A stretch of 56,937 nt of DNA from NCBI GenBank assembly GCA_038746285.1, contig JBCDKT010000024.1:1-56937 (forward strand), written 5' to 3'. Positions 34,016 to 50,459 of this stretch are shown in pieces. The translations under genes were made by a program, and so were the position numbers. The notes under the pieces are model-generated. The model worked only from the letters and a program-made list of their open reading frames with translations. It was not told where the DNA came from and made no database searches. The number at the start of each line of letters is the position of its first letter. Position 1 is the first letter of the stretch. The stretch comes from Bacteroidota bacterium. Lineage in GTDB: Bacteria > Bacteroidota > Rhodothermia > Rhodothermales > JANQRZ01.

Positions 34016-35410
34016 ATGCGCCGAAAGGGAACACGGGCGGAAAGGCCCTGTAGCTGGCCTCGCGCATCTCCAACTCTCTCTCCCCGCCTCCCGCAATGCC
34101 CTCCTTCTCTGGACGTACGCCCTTTTCCCCCCGATCCCTCATCGTCTCCCTCCCGCCGCCTCGGCCTCGCTATCGTCGGTGTCGGCGGAGCCGTCAGCAC
34201 GACCGCCGCAGCCGGCGTCGAACTGCTCCGGCAGGGACGCACCGAACCTCACGGCCTCCCGCTCGCCTCGCTCGACACCGACCTCATCTGCGACCTCGCA
34301 CCCTACGGTGACCTCGTCATCGGTGGGTGGGACGTGAGCGGCGACGACCTAGCGGCTGCGGCGCGTGGGCACGACGTGCTCTCGCTTCAGCAGTACGGTG
34401 CCGCCGAAGACGCCCTCGCGGCTGTCACGCCGTGGCCGGCTGTCGGCGACGAGCGCTTCTGCCGCGGCGTCACCGGTGCCCACGTCGCAAACTGCGACAG
34501 CCCGTCCGTGGCCGTCGACGCCGTCCGCGCCGACCTCCGCCGCTTCCGCGACGACGAAGGCCTCGACGGCGTCGTGATGATCAATCTCGCCTCGACCGAG
34601 GCCACGCCCGAGCGCGACGCGGCCCTCTTCCAGTCGGCCGACGCGTTCGAGGCGGCCGTCGAGGCGGGCGACGACCGGATCCCGCCGGCGATGCTCTACG
34701 CCTACGCCGCGATCCTCGAAGGCGTCCCCTACGGCAACTTCACGCCCTCGACCGGCGCTGATGTGCCCGCGCTCATCGAACTCGCGGAGCGCCACGGCGT
34801 CCCGCTCGCCGGCAAGGACGGCAAGACCGGGCAGACGTTCGTCAAGACGCTCGTCGCCCCCGGCCTCCGCGCCCGCGCGCTCGGCGTCGAGGGCTGGTTC
34901 TCGACTAACATCCTCGGCAACCGCGACGGCGAGGCGCTCCGCGAGGCCGACTCGCTCGCCTCGAAGATCGGGACCAAAGGCTCCGTCCTCGACCAGATCC
35001 TCGGCTACGAGGTCGAGGACCACGTCGTCAAGATCAACTACTACCGCCCGCGCGGCGACGCCAAAGAGGCGTGGGACAACGTCGACCTCGTCGGCTTCCT
35101 CGGCGAGCAGATGCAACTCAAGATCAACTTCCTCTGCAAGGACTCGATCCTCGCAGCCCCGCTCGTGATCGAGATCGCCCGCCTCCTCGACGCGGCTCAG
35201 CGCGACGGCGAGGGCGGCGTGATGGAGTGGATGGGGACGTTCTTCAAGGGCCCGATGACGGCCGACGGGCGCGAGCCCGAGCACGCGCTCCACGAGCAGC
35301 AGGCGGCGCTCCTCGGCTGGCTCGAAGCCCGCGCCGCGCGCCGCGCGCCGTCCGAAGGCGATGGGGCCGCCCTCGCCGCCGTGCCGACAGTCGAGCCCTC
35401 GGCGTCGTGA
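34016..35410 (+). CDS. ino1: myo-inositol-3-phosphate synthase
   Basis: About 464 residues from the GTG-ATG pair at 34013-34018. NAD-dependent synthase that makes inositol-3-phosphate from glucose-6-phosphate. Motifs: nucleotide-binding GLAIVGVGGAVSTTA, VANCDSPSVAVDAV, VVMINLASTEATPE, the PYGNFTPSTGADVPAL block, GKDGKTGQTFVKTL and FSTNILGNRDGEALREAD, then KINYYRPRGDAKEAWDN. The conserved domain begins near 34157. There is no in-frame ATG, GTG or TTG between 34019 and there. The best-looking ATG (34096) is in another frame and would need a shift at the T4C6 run at 34129-34138, so the first 50 residues are uncertain. First gene of the inositol/YcaO cluster. Confidence 0.85.
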   Translation: MRRKGTRAERPCSWPRASPTLSPRLPQCPPSLDVRPFPPDPSSSPSRRLGLAIVGVGGAVSTTAAAGVELLRQGRTEPHGLPLASLDTDLICDLAPYGDLVIGGWDVSGDDLAAAARGHDVLSLQQYGAAEDALAAVTPWPAVGDERFCRGVTGAHVANCDSPSVAVDAVRADLRRFRDDEGLDGVVMINLASTEATPERDAALFQSADAFEAAVEAGDDRIPPAMLYAYAAILEGVPYGNFTPSTGADVPALIELAERHGVPLAGKDGKTGQTFVKTLVAPGLRARALGVEGWFSTNILGNRDGEALREADSLASKIGTKGSVLDQILGYEVEDHVVKINYYRPRGDAKEAWDNVDLVGFLGEQMQLKINFLCKDSILAAPLVIEIARLLDAAQRDGEGGVMEWMGTFFKGPMTADGREPEHALHEQQAALLGWLEARAARRAPSEGDGAALAAVPTVEPSAS

Positions 35411-36375
35411 CCGCCGCAGCAACCGAAAATCTCGCGGGGGTCGGCGCGCTCGCCGGCCTCGCCCGCGAGGTCGTGGACCTCAAGCGGATGCGCGACGCGC
35501 GCTCGCCGCGGTCGCTGGCCGAGTGGCTGTTCGCCCGGTCGTGGACGCGGCTCGTGCGCGGCGATGCGTTGGGTGCGGTTGCGCTCGGCGAGACGGCGCA
35601 GGCGCTCGCCGCCGTCCGCCTTGCCGGGATCGACCGCGCCGTGATGCGCGACCACGGGCTGACCGACGCCGAGGCCGCAGCCGCGCTCGTCCAAGCCTTC
35701 GACGACGTAGCTGGACCGCTCGACGGTGCCCTGCGCGACCGGCTGCGCGAGGCGCTCGCGCAGGACCCGGCCCGCGTTGTCCCGCTCGGCGACGAGCCAG
35801 GCTTCGTCGAGGTGCTCGTCCGACAGCCGCGCGCCGGGGCGACGCACCCCGGCGTCCCGCGCCTCGTGCTCGACCCGGCCGAGAGCCACGCCGACCACTG
35901 CGCGAGCGTCGCGCTTCTCTCCGTCCTCCTCGCCCCGACCTTCGGGGCCGACCCGGCGCGTTCGTTCTTGACCGGCCTCGCCCACCACCTCTTCAACGTC
36001 ACCCTGCCCGACGCCGGCTTTGCGGGGGACCAGCTCCTGGGCGACGCGGCGGACCGGATGACAGCGGCCGCGTTCGAGCGTGCCCTCGTGGCGCTGCCCG
36101 GTGACCTGCGTGAGGAGACGAAGGCGGCGCTTGCTGCCACGCGCGAGGCGCAGTTCGACACGCCCGCCGCGCGCACCTTCCACGCCGCCGACGTGCTCGA
36201 CCGCGTGCTCGAAATGGAGAGGCACGCCCGCTCGGCGCGGTTCCGGCTCGCCGACGCGCTGGGGACAGATACCGAGGCGGGGCAGCGCAACATCGTCCAT
36301 GCCGGGTTCGAGCAGGACTTCCAGCGCGAGGTGCTGCACGCGGCCGGGCTGTGGCCGCCGGAGGGACTGCGATGA
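35407..36375 (+). CDS. HD-domain-like protein
   Basis: 322 residues starting with GTG, whose first three bases overlap the ino1 stop codon (GTGA). Helical throughout. The C-terminal half has an HD-superfamily pattern: PAESHADHCASVALLSVLL, then TGLAHHLFNVTLPDAG (His-His rather than the canonical His-Asp), and FHAADVLDRVLEMERHA. The first third is Ala-rich with no known family. If a metal site is present, HD proteins act as phosphohydrolases, and relatives act as diiron oxygenases (for example myo-inositol oxygenase); the altered pair argues for caution. It lies between ino1 and an oxidoreductase, with overlapping codons on both sides, so it is very likely part of the inositol pathway. Confidence 0.6.
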   Translation: MTAAATENLAGVGALAGLAREVVDLKRMRDARSPRSLAEWLFARSWTRLVRGDALGAVALGETAQALAAVRLAGIDRAVMRDHGLTDAEAAAALVQAFDDVAGPLDGALRDRLREALAQDPARVVPLGDEPGFVEVLVRQPRAGATHPGVPRLVLDPAESHADHCASVALLSVLLAPTFGADPARSFLTGLAHHLFNVTLPDAGFAGDQLLGDAADRMTAAAFERALVALPGDLREETKAALAATREAQFDTPAARTFHAADVLDRVLEMERHARSARFRLADALGTDTEAGQRNIVHAGFEQDFQREVLHAAGLWPPEGLR

Positions 36376-37406
36376 GCAGTGCTGACCAACCATTCGCGTG
36401 GGGCATCGTCGGCTGCGGCTGGGTGGTGCGGGACTACGTCGCCCCAGCCCTCGCCGCCACCGGCACCGTCGCCGCGCTCTGCGACCCCGACGCCGAGGCC
36501 CTCGCCGCGACCGCGCCCGGTGCCGCGCACTACGCCGACCTCGACGCCTTCCTCCGTCACCCCGGCCTCGACGCCGTCTACGTGGCCACGCCGAATCACC
36601 TCCACGCTGCGCACGTCGCCGCCGTTGCCGAGGCGGGATTGCCCGTCCTCTGCGAGAAGCCGATGGCGCGGACAGCGGTCGAAGCCGAAACCATGATCGA
36701 GGCGGTTCACCGGGCCGGGGTGCCGTACGCGACTGCGTTCGACCAGCGGTTCCACCCGGCGCACGTCGCGCTCCGCCGGCTCGTCGCGCACGGCGCGCTC
36801 GGGACGGTCACCTGCGTCCGCATCCACTACGCCTGCTGGACCCCGGCCGACTGGGCCCCCGACGCGCTCTACCGCGACAACTGGCGCGTCGACCCCGAGC
36901 GGGCCGGCGGCGGCGCCCTCATCGACCTCGCCCCGCACGGGCTCGACCTCACCCAGCTTCTCCTCGGCGAGCCGATTGTCGAGGTCGCCGCGCTCACGCA
37001 GGAGCGGGTGTTCGACTACCCGGTCGACGACGGCGCGGTGCTCGTCGGGCGGACGGCGTCGGGCGCGCTCCTCAGCCACACGGTCGCCTACAACTGCCCC
37101 GACGCGTTCCCACGCCGCCGGCTCGAAGTGATCGGGACGGAGGCGCGGGCGCTTGCCGTCAACACCATGGGGCAGACGCCCGGCGGGACGCTCACGCTCA
37201 CGCACGCCGACGGCCGGGAGGAGGCCGTCCCGTTCGACGCCGAGCGCTCGCCGTTCGAGGCACAGGCTGCTGCGTTCGTACATGCCGTGCGGTCGGGCGA
37301 GCCGTTCCCGTACGGCCCCGAGCGCGACCTCCACACGATGCGCCTCCTCGACGCCGCCGTCCAGAGCCGCCCCGTCCGCGTCGACCCCGAACCTGTCACC
37401 GCCTAG
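36372..37406 (+). CDS. Gfo/Idh/MocA family oxidoreductase
   Basis: 344 residues, start MSSADQPFAWG (ATGA overlap with the upstream stop codon). The Rossmann domain has GIVGCGWVVRDYVAPAL, LDAVYVATPNHLHAAHVA and the catalytic-region LCEKPMAR. The C-terminal alpha/beta domain has GGALIDLAPHGLDLTQLLLG (H in the active-site region) and later RRLEVIGTEAR. It resembles sugar/inositol dehydrogenases (IolG-like). Cofactor specificity and substrate are not readable. Neighbours make an inositol-derived substrate plausible. Gap of 2 bp to the next gene. Confidence 0.88.
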   Translation: MSSADQPFAWGIVGCGWVVRDYVAPALAATGTVAALCDPDAEALAATAPGAAHYADLDAFLRHPGLDAVYVATPNHLHAAHVAAVAEAGLPVLCEKPMARTAVEAETMIEAVHRAGVPYATAFDQRFHPAHVALRRLVAHGALGTVTCVRIHYACWTPADWAPDALYRDNWRVDPERAGGGALIDLAPHGLDLTQLLLGEPIVEVAALTQERVFDYPVDDGAVLVGRTASGALLSHTVAYNCPDAFPRRRLEVIGTEARALAVNTMGQTPGGTLTLTHADGREEAVPFDAERSPFEAQAAAFVHAVRSGEPFPYGPERDLHTMRLLDAAVQSRPVRVDPEPVTA

Positions 37407-37408
37407 CT

Positions 37409-38293
37409 ATGCCCGGCTCGACCCTGGACCTCCCCGCGTTCTGCTGCACGAACTGCGGCTTCTGGCAGCGCTACTTCGACGTGCCGCCCGACTGTCCCGT
37501 CTGCACCGACTACCGCCACCCGCTGCCGGCCGACGGGTGGAGTTTCTGGACCGCCGACGAGGTCGACCGCCGCGTCGAGGTGACGTGGTGCGAGGTGCTG
37601 CCCGACCTCTGGATGTTCACCGCGACCCCCGGCATCGGGATCGGCTCGTGCGGGTTTCTCGTCGTCCGCGAGGAGGGCAACATCGTCTTCGAGGGCTGCG
37701 GGTGGTACTCGGACGCGGCGCTCGACCAGGTCGAATCGCTCGGCGGGGTGCGGTGGCTGGCGTACTCGCACGCCCACGTCCAGGGCGCGCTCTGGCGCCT
37801 CGCCGAGCGGTTCCGGCCCGAAGTCGTCTGCCACACCGAGCAGCTTCCGACGGCGCAGGCGCTCCCCGTCGCCTGGCCCTTCGACGACCGCGCCGACCTC
37901 GGCGACGGAGCCGCGCTCCTCCACACCGGCGGCCACACGCCCGGTCACTCCGTGCTCTACCTCGCCGACCGCCGGATGCTCTTCTGCGGCGACGCGCTGA
38001 AGTACAAGCTCGACGCCGCGCCCGTCGGTCGCCCGCTCGCCGTCTCGACTCACAAGGCCTACGACGCCCACATCCCCCTCACGCACGACGACATGCGGCG
38101 CTACCGCGACCTCTTCGCTGGTCTCGATGTCGAGATGGTCGTTACGCCGTGGGAGGTCGTCCCCGAGGGCGGGCTGCCGCTCGCGCTCGCCATGCTCGAC
38201 GCGCAAGCCGCCCGCCGCCCGTCGGCCGACTGGTTCGCCGCCGACACCCACACCTTCGTCCCCGACGACCACTTCGACCCCGCCCATGTCTGA
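37409..38293 (+). CDS. zinc-ribbon MBL-fold protein with altered metal motif
   Basis: 294 residues. N-terminal rubredoxin-like knuckles CCTNCGFW and CPVCTDYRHPLP (residues about 12-38) can bind Zn or Fe. The MBL body has AYSHAHVQGALWRLA where the canonical HxHxDH is expected (HxH retained, Asp-His lost), yet HTGGHTPGHSVLYL and LFCGDALKY are kept. The active site is therefore probably altered, single-metal, or adapted to another reaction. Similar MBL proteins with a short zinc ribbon are not known to me as characterised enzymes. It overlaps the YcaO gene by 8 bp and follows the oxidoreductase after 2 bp. Confidence 0.75.
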   Translation: MPGSTLDLPAFCCTNCGFWQRYFDVPPDCPVCTDYRHPLPADGWSFWTADEVDRRVEVTWCEVLPDLWMFTATPGIGIGSCGFLVVREEGNIVFEGCGWYSDAALDQVESLGGVRWLAYSHAHVQGALWRLAERFRPEVVCHTEQLPTAQALPVAWPFDDRADLGDGAALLHTGGHTPGHSVLYLADRRMLFCGDALKYKLDAAPVGRPLAVSTHKAYDAHIPLTHDDMRRYRDLFAGLDVEMVVTPWEVVPEGGLPLALAMLDAQAARRPSADWFAADTHTFVPDDHFDPAHV

Positions 38294-39824
38294 CTTCCCG
38301 CCCGCGCCTGACTTTAGGGTGCCGCCCGACCCGCCCACCGTCGCCCGCTACCGCGCCGCCCTCAACCTCGACGAGGTCTACGAGTTCGCCCTCACGCCGC
38401 TCGACGTAACCGGCATCCCCGTCTGGACCGTCGCGACCTGGCTCGACGGCGAGTTCACGAGCGGGATCGGCTACGGTACCACCGACGACCGCGCCCGCAT
38501 CGGCGCGTGGGGCGAGTTGGCCGAGGGCGTCTTCGTCCACCGGCTCCGGGAGATGGCGACGCAGCGCGGGAGCTACCGCGACCTCGCGGAGGCCGGCGCG
38601 CGCGCCGTCGACCCGCTCCGGCTCCGCCTCCCGGTCGGGACGGACTACACCGAGGACACCGAGCGGCTCTGGGTCGAGGCGACGCGGTTCGTCCCAGGCA
38701 CGAGTGCCGACGAGGAATCAGCCTGGATGCTTCTCGATGAGGCGGCGGCGCACACCTATAACCTCCCGCCGGACTACACCCCGCTCTACACCCCGATCAC
38801 GAACGGCCTCGGCGCGGGCGACACGCCGGCGCGCGCCCTCGCGCACGGTCTCCTCGAACTCGTCCAGCGCGACGCCTCCTCGACCGGCTACCGCGCCTTC
38901 GACCGCGGCCTCGTGCTCGACCTCGGCGGCGTGCCCGACCCGGAGACGCGGCGGTGGATCGAGCAGATCGAGGACGCCGGGATCACACTCATGGCGAAGC
39001 TCGCCGGAACGCCGCTCGGGATCCCCGTGATCTACGTCGTCGGGCGCGAGCGCGACCTGGGCGCGATGCCGCACCCGCTCGTGCTGACGGGCTGCGGCGA
39101 GGGTGCCCACCCCGACCGCGAGCGGGCGCTCCAAAAAGCCGTCCTCGAGTACGGCGCGAGCCGCGTCCGCAAGCGCTTCGCCCACGGCCCGGTGGCCGAC
39201 CTCGAAGGCCGCGTTCCCGACGCCTACCTCCGCCGCGTACGCGAGATGGGCGTCGAGGGCGAAGAAGGCCGCGCCACCGACGCCGTCGCCGAGTGGGCCG
39301 GGCTGGACGGGCGTGAGCAGCTTCGCCGGCTCGAGAACCGCTGGTTCCGCGAGGCCGAGCGCCTCGCCTTCGCCGACCTCCCGACCGACCGCAGCCTGGA
39401 GACGCCCGAGGCCCTCGCCGCCGACGTCGCCCGCCGCTGCGCCGACGCTGGACTCGAAGCCTATTCCGTCGCACTCTCGCCGCCGGACGCCGACGTGTCG
39501 GTCGTCAAGACGATCGTGCCGGGGCTGGAGGTCGAGACGGTGACCTACGGCCGGATCGGGCCGCGCAACGTGCGCCGCCTGCTCGGACGAATCGAGGCCG
39601 GCGACGCGGTCGTCCATCCCGACCTCGTCGGGATCGGGCGGCCGCCGGCCGAGGCGCAACCAGTTCCGCTTGCGCCCGAAGGCGAGGCTGCGCTCGGCGG
39701 CTCCGCATGGGTCCACCTCGACCTGATGGAAGAGGCCGCCGGGCCGATCTACGCGATGTACCGCGAGCCGGCCGAGCACGTCGTCGGCCTTCGCGCCGAA
39801 GGCGCTGGGGCGGAGGCTGCGTGA
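38286..39824 (+). CDS. YcaO-like family protein
   Basis: 512 residues starting MSDFPPAPDFRVP (overlaps the MBL gene end). YcaO proteins use ATP to activate amide oxygen (azoline, thioamide or amidine formation). ATP-site patterns are visible: TSGIGYGTTDDRARIGAWGE, NGLGAGDTPARALAHGLLEL with VQRD, and HPDRERALQKAVLEYGASR. The usual partner proteins (Ocin-ThiF, E1-like, TfuA) and any short precursor peptide were not found here. Its C-terminus (about 420-512) is Pro/Glu-rich and lacks the PxPxP end. A non-RiPP, small-molecule role is thus possible. Coupled to the downstream TIM-barrel gene by a 1-base overlap. Confidence 0.85.
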   Translation: MSDFPPAPDFRVPPDPPTVARYRAALNLDEVYEFALTPLDVTGIPVWTVATWLDGEFTSGIGYGTTDDRARIGAWGELAEGVFVHRLREMATQRGSYRDLAEAGARAVDPLRLRLPVGTDYTEDTERLWVEATRFVPGTSADEESAWMLLDEAAAHTYNLPPDYTPLYTPITNGLGAGDTPARALAHGLLELVQRDASSTGYRAFDRGLVLDLGGVPDPETRRWIEQIEDAGITLMAKLAGTPLGIPVIYVVGRERDLGAMPHPLVLTGCGEGAHPDRERALQKAVLEYGASRVRKRFAHGPVADLEGRVPDAYLRRVREMGVEGEEGRATDAVAEWAGLDGREQLRRLENRWFREAERLAFADLPTDRSLETPEALAADVARRCADAGLEAYSVALSPPDADVSVVKTIVPGLEVETVTYGRIGPRNVRRLLGRIEAGDAVVHPDLVGIGRPPAEAQPVPLAPEGEAALGGSAWVHLDLMEEAAGPIYAMYREPAEHVVGLRAEGAGAEAA

Positions 39825-40693
39825 TGCTCCGCTACGCCTACAACACGAACGGCGCGGCCAACCACCGGCTGGACGACGCGCTCGCGCTCATCGCCGAGTG
39901 CGGCTACAACGGCGTCGCCCTCACGCTCGACCACCACCACCTCGACCCGTTCGCGCCCGACCTCGACCGCCGGGCGGCGCACCTCGACCGGCGGCTCCGC
40001 GAGCTCGGCCTCGGCCTCGTCGTCGAGACCGGGGCGCGGTTCCTCCTCGACTTCCGCCACAAGCACCGCCCGACGCTGCTCGACCCCGACCCGGCGGGCC
40101 GCACGCGCCGCCTCGACTTTCTGACCCGGGCGCTCGACGTGTGCGCCGCGTGCGGCGGCGAGACGGTCTCGTTCTGGTCCGGCCCGCTTCCCGATGGGAT
40201 GGACGAGGACAGGGCGTGGGGCTGGCTCGAAGAAGGGGTCGCAGCCGTCGCAGAGCGCGCCGCCGAGCGCGGGGTCGACGCCTCGTTCGAGCCCGAGCCG
40301 GGCCACCTCGTCGACACGCTCGCGGGCTACGACCAGCTCCGCCGCGCCGCGCCCGGCCTGCGGCTCGCCCTCGACACCGGACACCTGATCGTCACAAATG
40401 AGGCCGACCCCGCCGACACCGTCCGCGCTCGGGCCAGCCAACTCGGGACGGTCGCTGTCGAAGACATGGACCGCGGCGTCCACCTCCACAAACCGTTCGG
40501 GACGGGCGACATGGACGTGCCCGCCGTCCTCGCCGCGCTCATCGAGGTCGGGTTCGAGCGCCTCGTCACCGTCGAGCTGAGCCGCGAGAGCCCCCGCGCC
40601 CACGAGGCCATTCCTGAGTCCATCCGCTACCTGAAAGAGGCCGAACACAGCGGCGCGCTCGGCGACCGCGCCCAACCAGAGACAGCGGGGTAG
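39824..40693 (+). CDS. sugar phosphate isomerase/epimerase-like TIM barrel
   Basis: 289 residues, ATG overlapping the YcaO stop (TGATG). AP-endonuclease-2/xylose-isomerase-type barrel with likely metal ligands: Glu in SFEPEPGHLVDT, Asp/His in LALDTGHLI, His in HLHKPFGTGDMD and a last Glu in VTVELSRESPRA. The family includes IolE/IolI of inositol catabolism and EboE-like proteins. No signal peptide. It ends the coupled part of the cluster. A GTAGGG palindrome (40695) follows the stop codon. Substrate unknown; inositol or inosose derivatives fit the neighbours. Confidence 0.82.
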   Translation: MLRYAYNTNGAANHRLDDALALIAECGYNGVALTLDHHHLDPFAPDLDRRAAHLDRRLRELGLGLVVETGARFLLDFRHKHRPTLLDPDPAGRTRRLDFLTRALDVCAACGGETVSFWSGPLPDGMDEDRAWGWLEEGVAAVAERAAERGVDASFEPEPGHLVDTLAGYDQLRRAAPGLRLALDTGHLIVTNEADPADTVRARASQLGTVAVEDMDRGVHLHKPFGTGDMDVPAVLAALIEVGFERLVTVELSRESPRAHEAIPESIRYLKEAEHSGALGDRAQPETAG

Positions 40694-40762: not shown

Positions 40763-41983
40763 ATGCGCATCTGCTTCATCTCCCGCCGCTTCTTCCCGAC
40801 AATCTCGGGGATGAGCGTCTACGCCCTCAACCTCCTCCGCCAGCTCGTCCGCCAGGGCCACGACGTGGTCATGGTCTCGCAGTACTACGGCGGCGAGGCG
40901 GCGACGGTCTACGGCGACGGCCCGCCGATGCCGGTCGAGGGCGTGGACATCGTCGGCCTGGAGTCGGTCGGCGAGCAGACCTCGGGCGACTACGAGGCGG
41001 ACATCGAGGAGATGGTGAGCGTCATTGAGGCGAAGCACGCCGAGGCTCCGTTCGACGTGGTCCACGCGCAGTACTGCTACCCGACGGGCCTCGCCGCCCT
41101 CGAAGCGAGCCGCCGGCTCGGGATCCCGAACGTCGTCTCGATCCAGGGCGGCGACGGGCACTGGGTGGGGAGCTGCTGCGGGACGCACCGCCAGGCGATG
41201 GAGGCCGTCCTCGGCCACGCCGGCGCGCTCCTGATCGGCTCGCGCTCGTTCGCCGAGGAGGTCCACGAGCGCCTCGGGACCCCGCTCGACCGGTTCACGA
41301 TCGTCCCGGGCGCGGTCAACGTCGAGCGCTTCCAGCCGCGCCCCGACCGCGCTGTCGGCGACGTAGCCAACCCGCCGGTGCTGCTCTACCACGGCCGCGT
41401 CGACCGCCGCAAGGGTGCGCTCGACCTCCTCGACGCCGTTGCGCTCCTGGACCGCCCGCTCCGGCTCGTCGTTTCCGGGATCGGGCCGGACGTGGAGGCC
41501 GTCGAGCAGCGCGTCGACGCGCTCGGGATCGGGGGCCGGGTCGAGATCGCGGGCCTCGCGCCGTACGAAGATGTCCCCGCCCGCTACCACGAAGGCGACG
41601 TGTTCGTCTCGCCGACCTGGATGGAGGGCTTCTCGAACACGATCCTGGAGGCGATGGCGAGCGGGCTGCCGATCGTCTCGTGCGAGGTCGTGGGCGTCGT
41701 CGACTGCCTCGCCGACGGGCGCGACGCGCTCCTCACTCCGCCCAAGCAGCCGGGTGACCTCGCCGCTGCCATCGAGCGCATCCTCGACGACCACGCCCTT
41801 CGCCACCGCCTCGCCGAGACCGCGCTGGACGAGGCGCGGACGCTCTACAGCTGGCAGGCCCGCGCCGAGCAGATCGCTGGCGTCTACCGCTCGCTCCTCG
41901 GGACGGTGCCGAGCGACGACTGGCACTACGACGGCTCCGACCCCGACCCGTGCCGGTTCCGCGAGGTCCCGCAGCTCCTCTAG
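40763..41983 (+). CDS. GT4-family glycosyltransferase
   Basis: 406 residues, GT-B fold. N-terminal FFPTISGMSVYALNLLRQL and VVHAQYCYPTGLAALEAS; the C-terminal donor domain has LLYHGRVDRRKGALDLLDA and the E-x7-E motif in WMEGFSNTILEAMASGLPIV, then VDCLADGRDALLTPP. No signal peptide or membrane segment. Donor and acceptor cannot be read. MshA of mycothiol synthesis and BshA of bacillithiol synthesis are in the same family, and both work with a PIG-L deacetylase, like the one downstream. Neither is identified here: the BshA N-terminal motif is not present. Gap of 69 bp from the TIM-barrel gene, 14 bp to the next. Confidence 0.9.
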   Translation: MRICFISRRFFPTISGMSVYALNLLRQLVRQGHDVVMVSQYYGGEAATVYGDGPPMPVEGVDIVGLESVGEQTSGDYEADIEEMVSVIEAKHAEAPFDVVHAQYCYPTGLAALEASRRLGIPNVVSIQGGDGHWVGSCCGTHRQAMEAVLGHAGALLIGSRSFAEEVHERLGTPLDRFTIVPGAVNVERFQPRPDRAVGDVANPPVLLYHGRVDRRKGALDLLDAVALLDRPLRLVVSGIGPDVEAVEQRVDALGIGGRVEIAGLAPYEDVPARYHEGDVFVSPTWMEGFSNTILEAMASGLPIVSCEVVGVVDCLADGRDALLTPPKQPGDLAAAIERILDDHALRHRLAETALDEARTLYSWQARAEQIAGVYRSLLGTVPSDDWHYDGSDPDPCRFREVPQLL

Positions 41984-41997: not shown

Positions 41998-42783
41998 ATG
42001 CCGACGGCCCTCTTCGTCTCGCCCCACCTCGACGACGCCGCGTTCTCCGTCGGGGGTACGGCGGTGCACCTCGCCCAGCGCGGCTGGCGCGTCGTCGTCG
42101 CCACCGTCTTCACCCGGTCGGTCCCCGACCCGACCGGCTTCGCGCTTGCCTGCCAGACCGACAAGGGGATCGACGCCTCGGTGGACTACATGGCGGTCCG
42201 ACGCGACGAGGACATCGCGTGCTGCGCCCGACTCGGAGCCGAGCCGGTGCACCTCGACCTTCCCGAAGCGCCACACCGCGGCTATGCCGATGCCCGGACG
42301 CTCTTCGCTGGCGTCCACACCTCGGACGAGCCGTACACCGACACCGTCCGCCACGCCCTCGCCGGCGCGCTCGACCGTGCGCGGCCCGACCTCGTGTTCG
42401 CGCCGCAGGGGATCGGCGGGCACGCGGACCACCGGCACGTCGTCCGCGCTGTCGCCGGTCTCGCCGTCGAACACCGAATCCAGGTGGCGTGGTACCGCGA
42501 CCTGCCCTACGCACTCCGCCACCCGGACGCCCCGGCGGACGAGTGCGTGCCCGATGGTTGTGCGCCTGCGGCTCTCGACATCGAGGCGACGCTCGGCGCG
42601 AAGGTCGAGGCATGTGCGGCCTACCGGACCCAGCTCCCGTTCCAGTTCGCCCGCGAGACGCCGGGGGCCGACCCCGAGACGGCGCTTGCCGCTGCGCTCA
42701 CGCTCGACGCCCGCGAGGCCGGGCGCCCGTTCGGGCTGCGTGCCGCCGAAGTCGTTCGCGCTGCCGGTCCGCTTCTGGTCTAG
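41998..42783 (+). CDS. PIG-L family deacetylase
   Basis: 261 residues, start MPTALFVSPHLDDAAFSVGG. The zinc motif PHxDD (PHLDD, a variant of PHPDDE) and HADHRHVVRAVAG (second metal-ligand His) are intact. PIG-L enzymes remove acetyl from N-acetylglucosamine glycoconjugates (MshB, BshB) or other substrates. 14 bp after the GT4 gene. Its TAG stop overlaps the TAG stop of aceK on the other strand (CTAG at 42780-42783), so the two operons end within each other. Confidence 0.88.
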   Translation: MPTALFVSPHLDDAAFSVGGTAVHLAQRGWRVVVATVFTRSVPDPTGFALACQTDKGIDASVDYMAVRRDEDIACCARLGAEPVHLDLPEAPHRGYADARTLFAGVHTSDEPYTDTVRHALAGALDRARPDLVFAPQGIGGHADHRHVVRAVAGLAVEHRIQVAWYRDLPYALRHPDAPADECVPDGCAPAALDIEATLGAKVEACAAYRTQLPFQFARETPGADPETALAAALTLDAREAGRPFGLRAAEVVRAAGPLLV

Positions 42784-44525
42784 CGCTGCGGGAAGCGCTG
42801 GCTCGGGGGGTAGGGGAAGATGTCGACAGGCTCGTCGTCGCGCTGCCACGCCTGCATCGCGTGCCAGAACGCGGGGTCGAGGAGGTCCCCGTGGTGCTGG
42901 AGGAAGAGCGGGCGCAGCCGGGCCGGTAGCCCGAGGAAGGTCCCGATCTCCTCGGGGAAAACGTCGCCCGGCGCGACGTGGAACCAGGCCTCGGCGCTCA
43001 TCCGCTCGACCTCGTCGCGGGCTTCGGGGAGGGCGCGGAAGGCGAACTCAGAGAGCAGCCCGAGTTCGTCGTAGTCGTAGAAGATCACCCGCCGCTGCCG
43101 CGTCACGCCGAAGTTCTTGACGAGCATGTCGCCGGGGAAGATGTTGGCCGCCGCGAGGTCCTTGATCGCGTACCCGCAGTCGACGACGGCCGAGTGCTGC
43201 GCCGCCTCGTCGACCTCGCGGAGGTAGAGGTTGAGCGGCGTCACGCGGCGCTCGGTGTAGAGGTGCTCGATCACCACGTCGTCGCCCCGGACGTGGACCG
43301 TCTGCCCGGCGACGGCCAGCAGCTCGTCGAGGAGGTCGGGGTCGAAGCGGTCGCGGGGGAACTCGAGGTGCTCGTAGGCCTGCACGTCGGCTAGGCGGCC
43401 GACGCGGTCGTGGAGCATCACGAACCGGTACTGCCGCATGACCTCGGCGCGCGTGGTCTGCTTCGGCGGGTCGAAGCGGTCCTTGATGATCTTGAAGACG
43501 ACGTCGAAGCCGGGGAGCGTGAAGACGCGCATCACCATCCCCGGCGTGCCGCGCGCGGTCTCGAAGCAGTCGTCGGTCTCCGCGAGGTGGGCGCAGAGGG
43601 CGCGGTAGAGTTCGGTCTTGCCGTGCTTGGTGTAGCCGAGCGAGATGTAGAGCTCGGCCGTCCGCTTCCTCGGCATGATCGTCTGGAGAAAGCGGACGAG
43701 CGCCCACGGCTGCGGGGAGACGACGTGGAAGTAGGACCGGGTGAACGAGAAGACGAGCGAGACGGCGTTCGAGGTCAGCAGCGCCGTGTCCACGCGGACG
43801 CCCTCGCCGTCGCCGTGGAGCACCGGCAGGACGAGCGGGACGACCGCCTCGCCCTCGGCCGTCGCCGCGACGATCCGCCCGATGAGGTAGGCCGCCTTGT
43901 TGCGGTAGAACACGGCCTCCAGCATCTCGACGCGGTCGATGCCGCCGGCTCCGGTCTCCGAGAGGCGCGCCTCGATGCGCTCAGCGACGCGGCGGGCGTC
44001 GCGCCCGATGTCCTCGAACGGGACGCCGAGGGCGTAGCCCCGGAGCACCGACTCGACCGTGCCGGCGGTGGTCGGCCCGAGCGGGACGCGGCTGGAGCAC
44101 GGCGAGGCCTCCATCGACTCCGGCACTGTCAGCCCGTCGGCCACGAACTCGATCAGCGGGTCCACGCCGACGGTTGCGAAGACGCGGCGGGTGATCGAGT
44201 TGTAGTAGGTCTCGGCCAGTTCGGCGTTGCGCTCGCCGCGGCGGCGCTCGGCGTAGGCGGCCCGCGCCTCGGCCCAGCGCTCGCGGCTCTCGGTCTCGGC
44301 CCCGAGGACACCGCGGACGCGGCGGAGCGTCTGCTGGACGGTCTTCTCGTAGAGCGCGAGGCGCTCGCGGTCGTCCTGCGCGCTCTCGGCCCAGGCCTGG
44401 CGCGCGAAGCAGCCGGTGGCGCGCCGGGTGAGGGCCTGGAACCGGTTGTGGTACGCCTCGAAGCCCTCGTCGATCAGGCGGGCCACGTCGGCGGCGGACG
44501 GGCCGGGGTTCGGAGAGTCAGTCAC
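42780..44525 (-). CDS. aceK: isocitrate dehydrogenase kinase/phosphatase
   Basis: 581 residues, the usual AceK length. It controls the branch between TCA cycle and glyoxylate bypass by phosphorylating and dephosphorylating ICDH. Recognised from EGFEAYHNRFQALTRRA, ETYYNSITRRVFATVGVDP, YRNKAAYLIGRIV, KHGKTELYRALCAHL, GMVMRVFTLPGFDVVFKIIK and DCGYAIKDLAAANIFPGDML with VKNFGVT. Start GTG, overlapping the hisIE stop (GTGA), so it is coupled to the histidine operon. No aceA/aceB in the window. Rare outside Proteobacteria, as far as I know; its place here is unusual. Confidence 0.95.
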   Translation of the reverse strand: MTDSPNPGPSAADVARLIDEGFEAYHNRFQALTRRATGCFARQAWAESAQDDRERLALYEKTVQQTLRRVRGVLGAETESRERWAEARAAYAERRRGERNAELAETYYNSITRRVFATVGVDPLIEFVADGLTVPESMEASPCSSRVPLGPTTAGTVESVLRGYALGVPFEDIGRDARRVAERIEARLSETGAGGIDRVEMLEAVFYRNKAAYLIGRIVAATAEGEAVVPLVLPVLHGDGEGVRVDTALLTSNAVSLVFSFTRSYFHVVSPQPWALVRFLQTIMPRKRTAELYISLGYTKHGKTELYRALCAHLAETDDCFETARGTPGMVMRVFTLPGFDVVFKIIKDRFDPPKQTTRAEVMRQYRFVMLHDRVGRLADVQAYEHLEFPRDRFDPDLLDELLAVAGQTVHVRGDDVVIEHLYTERRVTPLNLYLREVDEAAQHSAVVDCGYAIKDLAAANIFPGDMLVKNFGVTRQRRVIFYDYDELGLLSEFAFRALPEARDEVERMSAEAWFHVAPGDVFPEEIGTFLGLPARLRPLFLQHHGDLLDPAFWHAMQAWQRDDEPVDIFPYPPSQRFPQR

Positions 44526-45160
44526 GGATCGCTGGAATCGGGGTCGAGGTCGGGCCGTCGCCGCTTTGCGAGCACCGCCGTCACGTCGCCCAGCCCGAGC
44601 CCGCGCTGCCGGAGCAGCACGAGGAGGTGGAAGACGAGGTCGGCGGCCTCGCCGGCGAGCGCGTCGTCGTCCGCGTTCTTGGCCGCGATGACGACCTCGA
44701 CGGCTTCCTCGCCGACCTTCTGCGCGCAGCGGTCGAGGCCGGCGCTGGCGAGGCTCCGAACGTACGAGCCGGGACTGCCAGAAGCAAAGCGGTCGGCAAT
44801 CGTGCGCTCCAGGTCGCCGAGGAGGCCGAGGCCGGGGTCGGCGTCGAAGCACGAGACGGCACCGGTGTGGCAGGTCGGGCCGGCGGGCTCGGCGAGCGCG
44901 AGGAGGGCGTCGCTGTCGCAGTCGAGGTGGAGGCTGCGGAGGCGGAGCGTGTGGCCTGAGGTCTCACCTTTGGTCCAGAGCGTCTCCCGGCTTCGGCTCC
45001 AAAAGGTCACGAGGCCGGTCGCGAGCGTCTGCTGGGCGGCGGTGCGGTCCATGTAGCCCAGCATCAGCACGCGCCGCGTGGCGGCGTCCTGCACGATCGC
45101 GGGGACGAGGCCGTCACCTTTGGCGAAGTCAAGGCGGTCGAGGTCGGCGGCGGTCAGCAT
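44522..45160 (-). CDS. hisI: bifunctional phosphoribosyl-AMP cyclohydrolase/phosphoribosyl-ATP pyrophosphatase
   Basis: 212 residues (HisIE). The N-terminal cyclohydrolase (about 1-110) has VPAIVQDAATRRVLMLGYMD, WTKGETSGHTLRLRSLHLDCD and PTCHTGAVSCF (Zn Cys). The C-terminal pyrophosphatase (about 120-200) has SYVRSLASAGLDRCAQKVGE, EAVEVVIAAKNADDDALAGE. Steps 2 and 3 of histidine synthesis. Its start overlaps hisF closely (4-7 bp apart); aceK follows with a GTGA overlap. Confidence 0.97.
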   Translation of the reverse strand: MLTAADLDRLDFAKGDGLVPAIVQDAATRRVLMLGYMDRTAAQQTLATGLVTFWSRSRETLWTKGETSGHTLRLRSLHLDCDSDALLALAEPAGPTCHTGAVSCFDADPGLGLLGDLERTIADRFASGSPGSYVRSLASAGLDRCAQKVGEEAVEVVIAAKNADDDALAGEAADLVFHLLVLLRQRGLGLGDVTAVLAKRRRPDLDPDSSDP

Positions 45161-45921
45161 GGGCGGACGGGGATGGCGCGCGCGGCGAGGTAGGCTTTGA
45201 GGTCGGGGAGGGCGAGCGTGCCGTAGTGGAAGAGCGAGGCGGCGAGGGCGGCGTCGGCGAGGCCGGCGGCGAAGACCTCGGCGAAGTGCTCCGGCGATCC
45301 GGCCCCGCCGGAGGCGATGAGGGGGACGCGGACGCGGGGCCGCGCGGCGGCGAGAAGCGCGGTGTCGAACCCGGCCTGCGTCCCGTCGGCGTCGACGGAG
45401 GTGAGGAGGATTTCGCCCGCGCCCGCGTCCTGCGCCTCGGCGAGCCAGGCGAGCGCGTCGCGGCCCGTGTCGGTGCGCCCGCCGCGCGTCATGACCGTCC
45501 AGCCCGAGGCCGTGTGCCCGGTCCGCTTGGCATCGACCGACAGCACGACGGCCTGGCTCCCGAACGCCTCGGCCAGTTCGCGGACGAGCGCGGGCCGCGC
45601 CACGGCCGACGAGTTGACTGCCACCTTGTCGGCCCCGGCTCCGAGCACCGACGCCGCGTCCTCGACGCTCGCAATCCCGCCGCCGACGGTGAACGGGATG
45701 TCGAGCGCCCGCCCGACGCGGAGCGCGAGGTCGGTCACGGTCTGCCGCTTCTCGACCGTCGCCGTGATGTCGAGGAAAACCACTTCGTCGGCCCCCTCGG
45801 CGGCGTAGCGGACGGCGAGTTCGACCGGGTCGCCCGCGTCGCGGAGGCCGACGAAGTTGACCCCTTTGACGGTCCGGCCGTCGCGGATGTCGAGGCAGGG
45901 AATGAGGCGGCGGGCGAGCAT
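45154..45921 (-). CDS. hisF: imidazole glycerol phosphate synthase subunit HisF
   Basis: 255 residues. The cyclase subunit of the IGP synthase with HisH. Starts MLARRLIPCLDIRDGRTVKG (the catalytic Asp in CLDI), VVFLDITATVEKR, VGGGIASVEDA, VNSSAVARPALVRELAEAFG, MTRGGRTDTGRDALAW and LLTSVDADGTQAGFD. TIM barrel of normal length. The start is set by the 1-base overlap with the hisA stop; longer readings in this frame are shadow of hisA/hisH. Confidence 0.97.
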   Translation of the reverse strand: MLARRLIPCLDIRDGRTVKGVNFVGLRDAGDPVELAVRYAAEGADEVVFLDITATVEKRQTVTDLALRVGRALDIPFTVGGGIASVEDAASVLGAGADKVAVNSSAVARPALVRELAEAFGSQAVVLSVDAKRTGHTASGWTVMTRGGRTDTGRDALAWLAEAQDAGAGEILLTSVDADGTQAGFDTALLAAARPRVRVPLIASGGAGSPEHFAEVFAAGLADAALAASLFHYGTLALPDLKAYLAARAIPVRPC

Positions 45922-46661
45922 CAGGCTACGCCTCCGGCGCGGAACGCGGCGAGGTCGGCCGGGGCGAGCGCGCCCTCGATCCAGGCCCGCCCAAAAACGG
46001 CCCCGGCGGCTCCGGCGTCCCGGAGCGCTTCGAGATGAGCGACCGTGGCAATCCCGCCCGAGGCGATGACCGAGAAGGCCGGGAACGCGGCTGCGAGGCG
46101 TTCGATGAGCGCGGCGTTCGGACCAGTCATCATGCCGTCGGTCTGGATGTCCGTCACGATGACGGTCTGGACGCCGACGTAGGCGAGGCTCTCCAGCAGG
46201 ATCTCCGCTTCGACGTCGGCGGTACGCTTCCAGCCGTGCGTGGCAGGCCGCCCGTCGCGTACGTCGAGGCCGACGACGATGCGGCCGGCCCCGAAGGCTT
46301 CGATGCACTGCCGGGCGAAGTCCGGGTCGGCGGCTACGCGGGAGCCGAGGATGGCCCGCGCTGCGCCGCGCCCGAGCACGTCGCCGACCGCCTCGACGGT
46401 GCGCAGCCCGCCGCCGACCTCGACCGGGATCGTGCTCTCGCTCAGCACCGCATCCAGAAACGGCGAGGCCGTCGGCTTTCCGTCGCGCGCGCCGTCGAGG
46501 TCCACGAGGTGCAGTCCGTCGGCGAACGGCGCGACGGCGCCCAGGACCGAGGCGGGCGTGGCGTCGTAGGTCGTCACGTCGTCGTAGTCGCCGCGCCGGA
46601 GGCGGACGGCGCGGCCGCCGAGGAGGTCGAGGGCAGGCCAGAGTTGGAAGCGGGCAGCCAT
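45921..46661 (-). CDS. hisA: ProFAR isomerase HisA
   Basis: 246 residues. TIM-barrel isomerase for the fourth step. Motifs LWPALDLLGGRAVRLRRGDY, LHLVDLDGARDGKP, VEVGGGLRTVEAVGDVLGRG, ILGSRVAADPDFARQCIEA, VGLDVRDGRPATHGWK and VTDIQTDGMMTGPNAALIER, then VIASGGIATVAHLEALRDAG. Lies between hisH (3-bp gap) and hisF (1-base overlap). Confidence 0.97.
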   Translation of the reverse strand: MAARFQLWPALDLLGGRAVRLRRGDYDDVTTYDATPASVLGAVAPFADGLHLVDLDGARDGKPTASPFLDAVLSESTIPVEVGGGLRTVEAVGDVLGRGAARAILGSRVAADPDFARQCIEAFGAGRIVVGLDVRDGRPATHGWKRTADVEAEILLESLAYVGVQTVIVTDIQTDGMMTGPNAALIERLAAAFPAFSVIASGGIATVAHLEALRDAGAAGAVFGRAWIEGALAPADLAAFRAGGVA

Positions 46662-46664
46662 AGG

Positions 46665-47267
46665 TCAGCGGGCGAGGAAGTTGCGGAGGATCGCGGCCCC
46701 GGCGTCGGCCGACTTCTCCGGGTGAAACTGCGTCGCAGCGACGCGCCCGCGCTCGACGACGGCGCTGAACTCGACGCCGGCGTAGTGGCACGTCGCCCGC
46801 GTCTCGGGGCCGACGGGCGCGGCGAAGGCGTGGACAAAATAGAGGTGCGCGCCGTCCACCAGGTCGTCGAGGAGCGGCGTCGGGGCGGTGAGGCGGAGCG
46901 TATTCCAGCCCATGTGCGGGACGGGCACGCCCGCGTCGGGGAAGCGGCGGACCGTCCCCGGCAGCAGGCCGAGGCACTCGGTGTCGTTGCCGGACGCGTC
47001 GCGCTCCTCGGAGCGCTCGTAGAGGAGTTGCAGCCCGAGGCACACGCCGAGGAGCGGCTGCTCGGTCGCCCGCAGCCAGTCGACGAGCCCCCGGTCGCGG
47101 AGTGCCGCCATCGCGCTCGCCGCCGCCCCGACGCCCGGCAGGATCACCCGCTCGGCCCGGTCCAGTTCTGCCGGGCTAGAGGTCAGCGTCCACGCCGCGC
47201 CGAGCCGGTCGAGCGCGTTCCCGACCGAGCGCGTGTTGCCCGCCCCGTAGTCGATGAGCGCGGTCAC
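46665..47267 (-). CDS. hisH: imidazole glycerol phosphate synthase subunit HisH
   Basis: 200 residues. Glutamine amidotransferase (class I) that supplies ammonia to HisF. Start MTALIDYGAGNTRSVGNAL. The catalytic Cys is in LLGVCLGLQLLYERSEE. His/Glu in VAATQFHPEKSADAG; PHMGWNTLRL is the family hallmark. Overlaps the hisB stop by 4 bp. Confidence 0.97.
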   Translation of the reverse strand: MTALIDYGAGNTRSVGNALDRLGAAWTLTSSPAELDRAERVILPGVGAAASAMAALRDRGLVDWLRATEQPLLGVCLGLQLLYERSEERDASGNDTECLGLLPGTVRRFPDAGVPVPHMGWNTLRLTAPTPLLDDLVDGAHLYFVHAFAAPVGPETRATCHYAGVEFSAVVERGRVAATQFHPEKSADAGAAILRNFLAR

Positions 47268-48346
47268 AGGCTGCCTTTCGTCGAGGGGATGGACGACGCG
47301 GCGCGCGGGTCGGTCTCAGCGGCGGCGCGGAGGGCGCGGGCGAAGGCTTTCGTCATGGCTTCGATGCGGTGGTGCTCGTTCCGTCCCGGTGCCAGCAGCC
47401 GGAGGTGGAGGGCGAGCTTGGCCTCGACGGCGAGGCTCTGGAAGAAGTGCGGCACCATCTCGGTGCTGAGTGCGCCCACCATCTCGCGCTCGGGCGCGTA
47501 GTCGGTCTCGAACGCGAAGCGCCCGCCGAGGTCGACCGCGGCGGCGCAGAGGACCTCGTCCATCGGCACGAGGGCGTCGCCGTAGCGCCGGATGCCGCGC
47601 CGCTCGCCGAGCGCGTCGCGGAGCGCCTGCCCGAGGACGAGGCCGACGTCCTCGACGAGATGGTGGTCGTCCACGTCGTCACCCTCGGCCTCGACCGTGA
47701 GGTCTGTCAGGCTGTGCTTGGCGAGGAGGTGCAGCATGTGGTTCAGGAACCCGTTCGGGACCGCGCCCTCGTACTGCCCGGTGCCGTCGAGCCGGAGCGA
47801 GAGCCGGATGCGCGTCTCGGCCGTCGCCCGCTCTACCGACGCCGAGCGCCCGAGCACGTCGGCCACGACGGCCTCGGCGAGGGCGAGCCAGTCGGGGTAA
47901 TCGGTCACGCGGTACCCCCGCAGCCCGAGCGCGTCGGCGAACTGCACGTCGCTCTCGCGGTCCCCGACCATGATCGACTCGGCGTTGTAGGCGATGCCTT
48001 CGACGAGGCCGGTGCGCGGCTTGCGGCAGGCGCAGCCGTCCTCCGGGTGGTGCGAGCACACGAGCGTCTCCCCGAAGGCGACCCCCTCGCTCGCCAGAAT
48101 CTCGAACAGCTTGGCGTTGACGGCCTCGAACGTCGCGGTCGGGTTGGCATCCGTCCCGAGGCCATCCTGATTCGTCACCATGACGAGCTCGAAGCCGGCG
48201 TCCGTGAGGCGGCGCAGACCGGAGATCGTGCGCGGGAGTAGACGGAGGTCGCCCAGGCCGCCGACCTGGTAGGGCGTCGGGTGGTCCGGCCCCGGCTCCC
48301 AGACGAGGGTCCCGTCGCGGTCGATAAAGGCGATGCGGCGGCTCAT
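47264..48346 (-). CDS. hisB: bifunctional histidinol-phosphatase/IGP dehydratase
   Basis: 360 residues. N-terminal HAD phosphatase (about 1-165): FIDRDGTLVWEP (DxDGT), VMVTNQDGLGTDANP, the zinc-loop CSHHPEDGCACRKP and MVGDRESDVQFADALG. C-terminal IGP dehydratase (about 170-360): GFLNHMLHLLAKHSLTDLTV, DDHHLVEDVGLVLGQALRDALG and RNEHHRIEAMTKAFARAL (Mn His motifs). Bifunctional form. Overlaps hisD by 4 bp. Confidence 0.97.
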   Translation of the reverse strand: MSRRIAFIDRDGTLVWEPGPDHPTPYQVGGLGDLRLLPRTISGLRRLTDAGFELVMVTNQDGLGTDANPTATFEAVNAKLFEILASEGVAFGETLVCSHHPEDGCACRKPRTGLVEGIAYNAESIMVGDRESDVQFADALGLRGYRVTDYPDWLALAEAVVADVLGRSASVERATAETRIRLSLRLDGTGQYEGAVPNGFLNHMLHLLAKHSLTDLTVEAEGDDVDDHHLVEDVGLVLGQALRDALGERRGIRRYGDALVPMDEVLCAAAVDLGGRFAFETDYAPEREMVGALSTEMVPHFFQSLAVEAKLALHLRLLAPGRNEHHRIEAMTKAFARALRAAAETDPRAASSIPSTKGSL

Positions 48347-49626
48347 GAGTCGAGGCGGACAGTGACGGCGCGGGCGTGGGCCTCTAGTTCCTCGGCGCGG
48401 GCCAGCGTTGTGACGGCGGGGGCAAGGGCACCCAGCCCGGCGCGGTCGAGCGTCTGGAACGTGACCGTGCGCTGGAACGCCTCGACGCTCAGCCCGCTCG
48501 TGCTCCGGGCGAGGCCGGCCGTCGGGAGCGTGTGGTTCGTGCCCGAGGCGTAGTCGCCCACGCTCTCCGGCGTGAGCGGGCCGCAGAAGACCGAGCCCGC
48601 GTTCGTGATCGCCCGGGCCGTCGCCTCCCAGTCGTCGAGGTGGAGGATGAGGTGCTCCGGCGCGTACCGGTTCGAGAACCGGACGGCGGCTTCGACCGAG
48701 CCGGTGACGACGGCGAAGCTGTGGGCGAGGGCGGCTTCGGCCGTCTCGCGGCGGGGGAGGGTCTCAAGCTGCGCCTCGACTTCGCGCTCGACGGCCTCAA
48801 CGAGCGCCGCGTCGGTGGCGACGAGGACGACCTGGCTGTCGGTGCCGTGCTCGGCCTGGCTCAGCAGGTCGGCGGCGACGAAGGCCGGGTTTGCCTCCGC
48901 GCCTGCGATGACAAGGACCTCGCTCGGCCCGGCGACCATGTCGACGGCGCAGAACCGGCTCGCCCGCCACTTGGCGGCGGTGACGTAGGCGTTGCCCGGC
49001 CCGAAGATTTTGTCCACGCGCAGCACGCTCTCCGTCCCGAGCGCGAGCGCAAACACGCCCTGCGCGCCGCCGACCTGCACGACCTCCGTCAGCCCGAGGT
49101 AGCCCGCCACTGCGAGGATCGGCTCGGCGGCCGGCGGCGGCGTGGCGACGACAATGCGGGCACACCCTGCGATTTGTGCTGGGATCGCCGTCATCAGGAG
49201 CGTGCTGACGAGCGGAGCCGTCCCGCCCGGCACGTACAGCCCGACCCGCTCGATGGGCCGCGTCTCGCGCCAGCACCGCACGCCCGGCATCGTCTCGACC
49301 GCGTAGCCTGCGCTGCCCTGGGGTGCGTGGAACGCCCGGAGGTTCGCCGCGGCCGTCTCGACCGCCGCCCGGAACTCGGGCGCGGCGGCGTCCCACGCTT
49401 CGGCGAGCCTCGCCTCGGGCACGAGCAGGTCGTCCACCGCCGTGTCGAACTGCGTGTTGAAGACGCGCAGCGCCTCGTCGCCGCGCTCGCGCACGGCCGT
49501 TTCGATAGCGGTCACAACATCGAGCACGCGTCCGTCGAGCGCGGCCGGCCGGGCGCACAGCCGCTCAGTGTCGGCGTCCGAGAGGTCGGTCAGGTGGTAG
49601 ACTTGGAGGCGGTTTGTCGCGGTCAT
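48343..49626 (-). CDS. hisD: histidinol dehydrogenase
   Basis: 427 residues. NAD-dependent zinc enzyme for the last two oxidations. Motifs: RPIERVGLYVPGGTAPLVST, GGAQGVFALALGTESV, VDKIFGPGNAYVTAAKW, VDMVAGPSEVLVIA, DLLSQAEHGTDSQVVLVA (zinc site), NRYAPEHLILHLDDWE and GPLTPESVGDYASGTNHTLP. Standard length. Overlaps hisG by 4 bp. Confidence 0.97.
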   Translation of the reverse strand: MTATNRLQVYHLTDLSDADTERLCARPAALDGRVLDVVTAIETAVRERGDEALRVFNTQFDTAVDDLLVPEARLAEAWDAAAPEFRAAVETAAANLRAFHAPQGSAGYAVETMPGVRCWRETRPIERVGLYVPGGTAPLVSTLLMTAIPAQIAGCARIVVATPPPAAEPILAVAGYLGLTEVVQVGGAQGVFALALGTESVLRVDKIFGPGNAYVTAAKWRASRFCAVDMVAGPSEVLVIAGAEANPAFVAADLLSQAEHGTDSQVVLVATDAALVEAVEREVEAQLETLPRRETAEAALAHSFAVVTGSVEAAVRFSNRYAPEHLILHLDDWEATARAITNAGSVFCGPLTPESVGDYASGTNHTLPTAGLARSTSGLSVEAFQRTVTFQTLDRAGLGALAPAVTTLARAEELEAHARAVTVRLDS

Positions 49627-50459
49627 TGGACCAGTTGTTCGATGGGCATGACGAGGATACCGACGGCCCCGGCCTCTCTCAGCGCGTGCATGGTCTCCCA
49701 GAACACGTCGAGGCCGACGACCGTCGCGATGCTGACCCAGCCTTCGCTTGTCAGCGGCGAGATCGTCGGCGTCTTGAGGCCGGGGAGGAGGGCGCGGATG
49801 CGCTCGACCGCCTCGCGCGGGGCGTTCATCACGACGTAGCGCGTGCGCTCGGCAGCGAGGCGGGAGCGGATGCGGACGAGAAGCCGGTCGAGGAGGTCCT
49901 GCCCGTCCCCGTCCAGGGGGCGGCCGAAGAGTACGGCCTCGGAGCGGAGCACGGTCTCGAACTCCGTCAGCCCGTTCTGCGCGAGCGTCGAGCCGGTCGC
50001 CACGAGGTCGCAGACCGCGTCCGCAATCCCGAGCGACGGGGCGATCTCGACCGACCCACTGAGGTCGACGATTTTCGCCTCGACATCCCGTGCTTCCAGC
50101 CAGCGCCCGAGCGTGCGGGGGTACGAGGTCGCGATGCGCGCCCCGCCGAGGTCGATCTCAGCCGGTGCGGCCAGGCTCAGACGGCACCGCCCGAAGCCGA
50201 GGCGCTCGATTACGGTCAGCGCCCCGCACCCGCGCTCCGAGAGCACGTCCTCGCCGCAGAGCCCGAGGTCGGCCCCGCCGTCGGCGACGACCTCGGGGAT
50301 GTCCTTGCTGCGCAGGAAGAGGAGGTCGAGCGGGAAGCCCGTGCCGGTGGCGGTGAGGCCGTGGGCGCTCGTCTGGAACGAGAGGCCGCAGGCGCGGAGG
50401 AAGTCGAGGGTCTGGTCGGCGAGACGGCCGGACTTCTGGACGGCGAGGCGGAGGGTCAA
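49623..50459 (-). CDS. hisG: ATP phosphoribosyltransferase, long form
   Basis: 278 residues. First, feedback-controlled step of histidine synthesis. Starts with TTG (TLRLAVQKSGRLADQTLDF follows); no in-frame ATG is found before it. Motifs: DIPEVVADGGADLGLCGEDVL, ARIATSYPRTLGRWLEARD, GSVEIAPSLGIADAVCDLVATG. The C-terminal HisG_C/ACT-like regulatory part (YVVMNAPREAVERIRALLPG, TPTISPLTSEGWVSIATVV, GAVGILVMPIEQLVQ) marks the long form that is inhibited by histidine without HisZ. First gene of the operon. The leader is about 20 nt after the predicted transcription start. Confidence 0.95.
   Translation of the reverse strand: MTLRLAVQKSGRLADQTLDFLRACGLSFQTSAHGLTATGTGFPLDLLFLRSKDIPEVVADGGADLGLCGEDVLSERGCGALTVIERLGFGRCRLSLAAPAEIDLGGARIATSYPRTLGRWLEARDVEAKIVDLSGSVEIAPSLGIADAVCDLVATGSTLAQNGLTEFETVLRSEAVLFGRPLDGDGQDLLDRLLVRIRSRLAAERTRYVVMNAPREAVERIRALLPGLKTPTISPLTSEGWVSIATVVGLDVFWETMHALREAGAVGILVMPIEQLVQ

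Follow-up and report, generated by a model that had tools for sequence, protein, structure and literature searches.

Which substrate does a YcaO enzyme act on when its gene lies among genes for cyclitol and sugar enzymes, with neither a precursor peptide nor a cyclodehydratase partner beside it? According to PMC13063428, YcaO enzymes activate the backbone amides of peptides and proteins, and stand-alone YcaOs keep the canonical ATP pocket (PMC4603692). The window analyzed here, a stretch of 56,937 nucleotides from a Bacteroidota bacterium of the order Rhodothermales, carries a YcaO gene for which an earlier note on this DNA had suggested a small molecule, or a protein encoded elsewhere, as the substrate. 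We will argue that the gene belongs to an operon that is rare, occurs in distantly related microbes, and looks built for an inositol-aminosugar compound.

Locus and Operon

The YcaO gene is intact and is the only one of its kind in the 4.08-Mb genome to which the window belongs. It is the fifth of eight genes that lie on the same strand between 34067 and 42783, in the order given in Table 1. Between successive genes there is either an overlap of a few bases or a gap of at most about 72 nt; YcaO shares 8 nt with the MBL gene and 1 nt with the TIM-barrel gene. The start codon of the Ino1 gene is uncertain, with further in-frame starts at 33977 and 34016. The earlier note had coupled an MBL protein, a TIM barrel and an inositol synthase to the YcaO; all three are indeed present, while its list omitted the HD protein, the Gfo/Idh dehydrogenase, the GT4 enzyme and the PIG-L deacetylase. 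Models of anti-phage defence systems gave no match.

Table 1. Genes of the operon and other features of the window
Feature	Position	Strand	Evidence or remark
Transposase, IS3-like	2050-2829	-	rve and HTH_21 domains; about 31 kb upstream of the operon
1382-aa protein	7884-12032	+	Peptidase C25 (gingipain-type) domain
Inositol-3-phosphate synthase, Ino1 type	34067-35410	+	PF07994, 217 bits; PF01658, 101 bits
HD-domain protein, candidate phosphohydrolase	35407-36375	+	Pfam HD_3, 22.6 bits, just above cut-off
Gfo/Idh/MocA dehydrogenase	36372-37406	+	Best NCBIfam match inositol 2-dehydrogenase, below its cut-off
Metallo-beta-lactamase-fold protein (MBL)	37409-38293	+	N-terminal Cys pairs, zinc-ribbon-like
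YcaO protein	38286-39824	+	PF02624; 512 aa; ATP pocket altered
Gln194 codon (E202 of E. coli YcaO)	38865-38867	+	Sequence and alignments
Xylose-isomerase-like TIM barrel (isomerase, epimerase or dehydratase type)	39824-40693	+	PF01261, 121 bits
GT4 glycosyltransferase, MshA among its relatives	40763-41983	+	PDB 3c48 and 7qsg high in profile search
PIG-L deacetylase	41998-42783	+	Among solved structures, closest to glycopeptide GlcNAc-type deacetylases
AceK (isocitrate dehydrogenase kinase/phosphatase)	42780-44486	-	Convergent with the PIG-L gene, the last of the operon
Histidine biosynthesis genes	44522-50246	-	Include histidinol dehydrogenase and a fused HAD/imidazoleglycerol-phosphate dehydratase protein
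Segment of lower G+C	51400-53680		Few long high-GC3 ORFs compared with its surroundings; possible recent insertion

Conservation of the Cluster

Seven further loci carry the operon, three in genomes of the same order and four on plasmid records of Hymenobacter volaticus, Methylobacterium bullatum, M. aquaticum and Roseomonas haemaphysalidis, in which YcaO identity is 39-47%. The plasmid loci came from tblastn searches, and a two-pattern contig scan yielded only one additional copy, in a haloarchaeal metagenome-assembled genome (MAG), where the YcaO stands alone without the cluster. Searches of 114 genomes of the order detected the YcaO in four, the window genome among them, and the one other genome of the same genus gave no match. 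The gene order is kept in all eight loci, each of which contains the YcaO, and Ino1, HD and GT4 are likewise conserved in every cluster. MBL and YcaO form a single ORF in two of the cluster genomes, G195 (780 aa) and G336, and the MBL gene is missing from the cluster in both Methylobacterium records. A methyltransferase gene is added in Methylobacterium and Roseomonas.

The plasmid records that contain the HD protein are exactly the four that contain a YcaO of the cluster clade; a weak HD match in genome G373 was excluded because of internal stops. Pairwise divergence correlates with that of YcaO for Ino1, HD, Gfo/Idh, TIM and GT4 (r 0.74-0.83). For PIG-L the correlation is weak (r 0.38), which may mark it as less tightly tied to the set. 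Between the two Methylobacterium copies, dN/dS is 0.25 for YcaO and 0.17-0.36 for the neighbours tested (TIM excluded), and because these values are similar, decay does not explain the changes in the YcaO pocket described below. On the Hymenobacter plasmid, the Gfo/Idh (12081-13126) and GT4 (16350-17587) genes are each split into two overlapping frames, possibly through sequencing error or decay.

These patterns bear on the option that the YcaO modifies a protein encoded elsewhere and that the genes around it feed or control a different pathway. There are precedents for YcaOs that modify proteins and have no peptide gene close by: an archaeal YcaO thioamidates McrA (PMC5589413), and the E. coli enzyme thioamidates ribosomal protein uL16 with no peptide gene next to it (PMC13063428). 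The solitary haloarchaeal copy would also fit. The strict linkage to about seven metabolic genes across distant hosts and the fusion to MBL speak against this option, as does a spread too patchy for the modifier of a core protein, and the cluster YcaOs fall outside the E. coli and methanogen clades. We consider it rather unlikely. The constant gene order with YcaO always present, the MBL-YcaO fusion, the co-occurrence of HD and YcaO on the plasmids and the correlated divergence argue instead for a YcaO that works as a tailoring enzyme of the operon's own pathway.

Place among YcaOs and Search for a Peptide

We now turn our attention to the YcaO protein itself. Its only Pfam domain is YcaO (PF02624), which spans residues 62-415 and scores 178 bits (cut-off 25.7), and its best NCBIfam score, to the McrA-type model TIGR03266, is 103 bits against a cut-off of 365. 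A maximum-likelihood tree of 50 rows was calculated for cluster, archaeal, TfuA-linked, ThiF-fused TOMM and E. coli YcaOs, with references taken from plasmids, from E. coli and from two draws at phylum level. The nine cluster YcaOs, i.e. those of the eight clusters and the haloarchaeal copy, form one clade (100/100) with a long stem (1.8 changes per site). This clade lies outside the sampled E. coli-type, ThiF-fused and methanogen clades and probably outside the TfuA-linked one; the placement proposed in the earlier note thus gives a group of its own, apart from the sampled RiPP and E. coli-type YcaOs. It joins beside the TfuA-linked YcaOs with a weak attachment (86/68), and since the reference draws were limited, unsampled YcaO groups may be nearer. 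In the same tree, two Bacteroidota YcaOs of 612-665 aa (L054 and L057) join the E. coli YcaO via long branches, and that join may be false.

Small ORFs (20-150 aa) that do not belong to the cluster were searched for within 8 kb at the eight loci. Apart from one frame antisense to a histidine kinase, no small ORF within this distance is conserved between lineages, the remaining matches being between the two Methylobacterium records only. Neither TfuA nor a cyclodehydratase partner adjoins the YcaO, TfuA is absent from the whole genomes of the window organism and its three cluster-bearing relatives, and no E1-like/ThiF domain occurs in the YcaO protein or in the operon. The absence of a partner and of a short precursor peptide, both remarked on in the earlier note, is borne out. 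A proline-rich PxPxP C-terminus is a mark of the azoline-forming TOMM cyclodehydratase family; the protein ends in VGLRAEGAGAEAA, which is not of this type.

It is true that YcaOs are frequent in RiPP clusters and that short precursors are difficult to detect, such that a precursor peptide might be encoded far off or have been missed. The results of the ORF and TfuA searches count against a RiPP pathway of this kind, as do the YcaO protein without a ThiF or E1-like domain and the cyclitol and sugar enzymes, which would be unusual RiPP partners, and we regard it as improbable. The lack of a conserved peptide and of TfuA, the separate clade and the purifying selection on YcaO favor a small-molecule substrate.

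The ATP Pocket

In the following, pocket residues are numbered according to E. coli YcaO on the basis of alignments; in the E. coli structure they are located around the ATP/Mg site. All nine cluster-clade YcaOs retain E75, E78, E199, R203 and E290. On the other hand, K61 is replaced by Tyr, S71 by Gly, E202 by Gln and Q293 by Ala, Ser or Gly, again in nine out of nine, and further changes in the cluster YcaOs are R286 to Lys and the loss of E191 and N187. Of 62 comparison sequences, 61 have Glu at position 202; the remaining one (L032) is a wrong-frame ORF without a match to the YcaO profile. The canonical ATP/Mg pocket is thus only partly present in the window YcaO. The earlier note had reported ATP-binding patterns, which holds for the five kept residues; the normal ATP site that it assumed fails, because the Glu of the 61 comparison YcaOs is Gln in the entire clade. 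A figure legend of PMC13063428 names an E202A enzyme among the variants compared, which we do not take as proof that E202 is essential.

Several other haloarchaeal YcaOs (L070-L075 and L081) also lack the K61 and S71 residues and keep E202. By alignment, this appears to be a second, different pocket variant.

Judged from the residues alone, a pocket changed in this way could indicate that the YcaO has stopped activating carbonyls, and this counts against its assignment as a tailoring enzyme. Catalysis could have been lost altogether, leaving a binding or scaffold subunit, or the pocket could have been reused for another ligand, e.g. a nucleotide sugar. Both the invariant Gln at position 202, accompanied by the loss of K61, S71 and Q293, and the fusion to MBL are compatible with such a change of role. 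The five retained pocket residues and the purifying selection on YcaO are not what would be expected from it, and we consider it unlikely.

Partner Enzymes and Proposed Pathway

Invariant motifs, with catalytic roles in their families, are kept across the clusters in Ino1, Gfo/Idh, TIM, GT4 and PIG-L. In Gfo/Idh these are EKP and D-x3-H, and in the TIM barrel the segments EPEP, DTGH and GDMD are conserved. In the MBL protein, the HxHxDH motif is cut down to HxHxxG, with HxH and a later His and Asp kept, and the HD protein has HH in place of the usual HD.

The Ino1 profile matches inositol-3-phosphate synthase (PDB 7nwr) with 404 bits. The cluster Ino1 is the only inositol synthase found in G195 and G336 (the latter 56% complete), while a second one is encoded elsewhere in the window genome and in G327. 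This match, the sole copies, and the closeness of GT4 to MshA and of PIG-L to GlcNAc-type deacetylases all favor an inositol-aminosugar product. It is important to point out that GT4 scores 100.8 bits with the MshA model, for which the cut-off is 462.5, and its donor and acceptor are for this reason family-level guesses. This low score, the weak PIG-L correlation and the lone haloarchaeal YcaO, in whose genome no TIM barrel was found, count against the pathway proposed below. No copy of the YcaO clade was found in the other searched genomes of the haloarchaeal MAG's order. None of the eight conserved genes serves transport or resistance, a pattern that would be compatible with a product kept inside the cell.

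On this basis, we propose with about even confidence that the operon builds a small molecule from inositol and an amino sugar, and that the YcaO takes part in its tailoring. The Ino1-type synthase would convert glucose 6-phosphate into inositol phosphate, a step with good family support, and the HD protein would strip the phosphate. Judging from their families, Gfo/Idh would then oxidize a ring hydroxyl to give a keto-cyclitol, which the TIM barrel would isomerize, epimerize or dehydrate. GT4 may attach N-acetylglucosamine, to be deacetylated by PIG-L as in mycothiol synthesis, which would give an inositol-glucosamine pseudodisaccharide. YcaO and MBL, by analogy with the amidine and thioamide YcaOs, would then modify a carbonyl of this molecule, most plausibly by activation followed by exchange of its oxygen for nitrogen or sulfur, and in the Alphaproteobacteria the methyltransferase would decorate the product.

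Another option considered was a UV-absorbing or otherwise protective keto-cyclitol, mycosporine-like in function, in which the YcaO joins an amine to an inositol-derived enone. The enzyme types (inositol dehydrogenase-like, isomerase/dehydratase-like and, in some clusters, methyltransferase) permit such a product. The Hymenobacter comes from air, genes for spore photoproduct lyase are found close to the Roseomonas cluster, and UVA-absorbing compounds are reported from Methylobacterium (cited in PMC12573535). This support amounts to ecological coincidence, GT4 and PIG-L are left unexplained, and no known absorber was found linked to the cluster genes; we hold this option to be very improbable. 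For methylobamine, a known Methylobacterium UVA absorber, the papers that cite it gave neither a structure nor a gene link.

Of the two substrate types suggested in the earlier note, the operon content points to the small molecule, and the separate clade agrees with that suggestion; the inositol-aminosugar is a candidate substrate that we infer from the genes. Tentatively, and with somewhat more doubt than conviction, we suggest that the substrate of this YcaO-fold enzyme, with its remodelled ATP site, is an inositol-aminosugar intermediate, i.e. a non-peptide, in an unrecognized small-molecule pathway of distant bacteria that is often plasmid-borne. If true, this would widen the range of the YcaO family to small molecules or give its nucleotide site a different use. 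The open-access literature, which leaves most subscription papers outside, yielded no YcaO with a non-peptide substrate and no paper in which a YcaO and an inositol-3-phosphate synthase occur together, which is weak evidence of novelty. Culturable Methylobacterium, Roseomonas and Hymenobacter carry copies, which makes gene deletion combined with metabolite profiling practicable.

Comparison with Known Systems

The TfuA-linked and the archaeal McrA-thioamidating YcaOs share the YcaO domain with the cluster enzymes and are their nearest groups in the tree. The cluster YcaO differs from them in that it has no TfuA, in the replacement of E202, K61, S71 and Q293, and in being part of a metabolic operon. 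The E. coli YcaO is alike in its domain and in having no adjoining peptide gene, and differs in clade, neighbours and pocket residues.

With regard to the product class, kasugamycin is similar in that an inositol isomer is joined to an aminosugar with an amidine-type group (PMC8869731). Its cluster is different, as a glycine oxidase is proposed for the amidine and no deacetylase was found there (PMC8869731). Bacillithiol synthesis shares the pair of GT4 and PIG-L; in each of the four cluster genomes, BshC is encoded on a different contig or at a great distance, and none is in the operon, so that bacillithiol was rejected as the product.

The likeness to mycothiol lies in the joint presence of an Ino1-type synthase, GT4 and PIG-L, which probably form a GlcN-inositol front end. 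Neither MshC nor MshD is among the conserved cluster genes, GT4 and Ino1 score far below the cut-offs of the mycothiol models, and we do not claim membership in the mycothiol pathway. The front end resembles the logic of mycothiol synthesis, to which the cluster adds Gfo/Idh, TIM, MBL, HD and YcaO.
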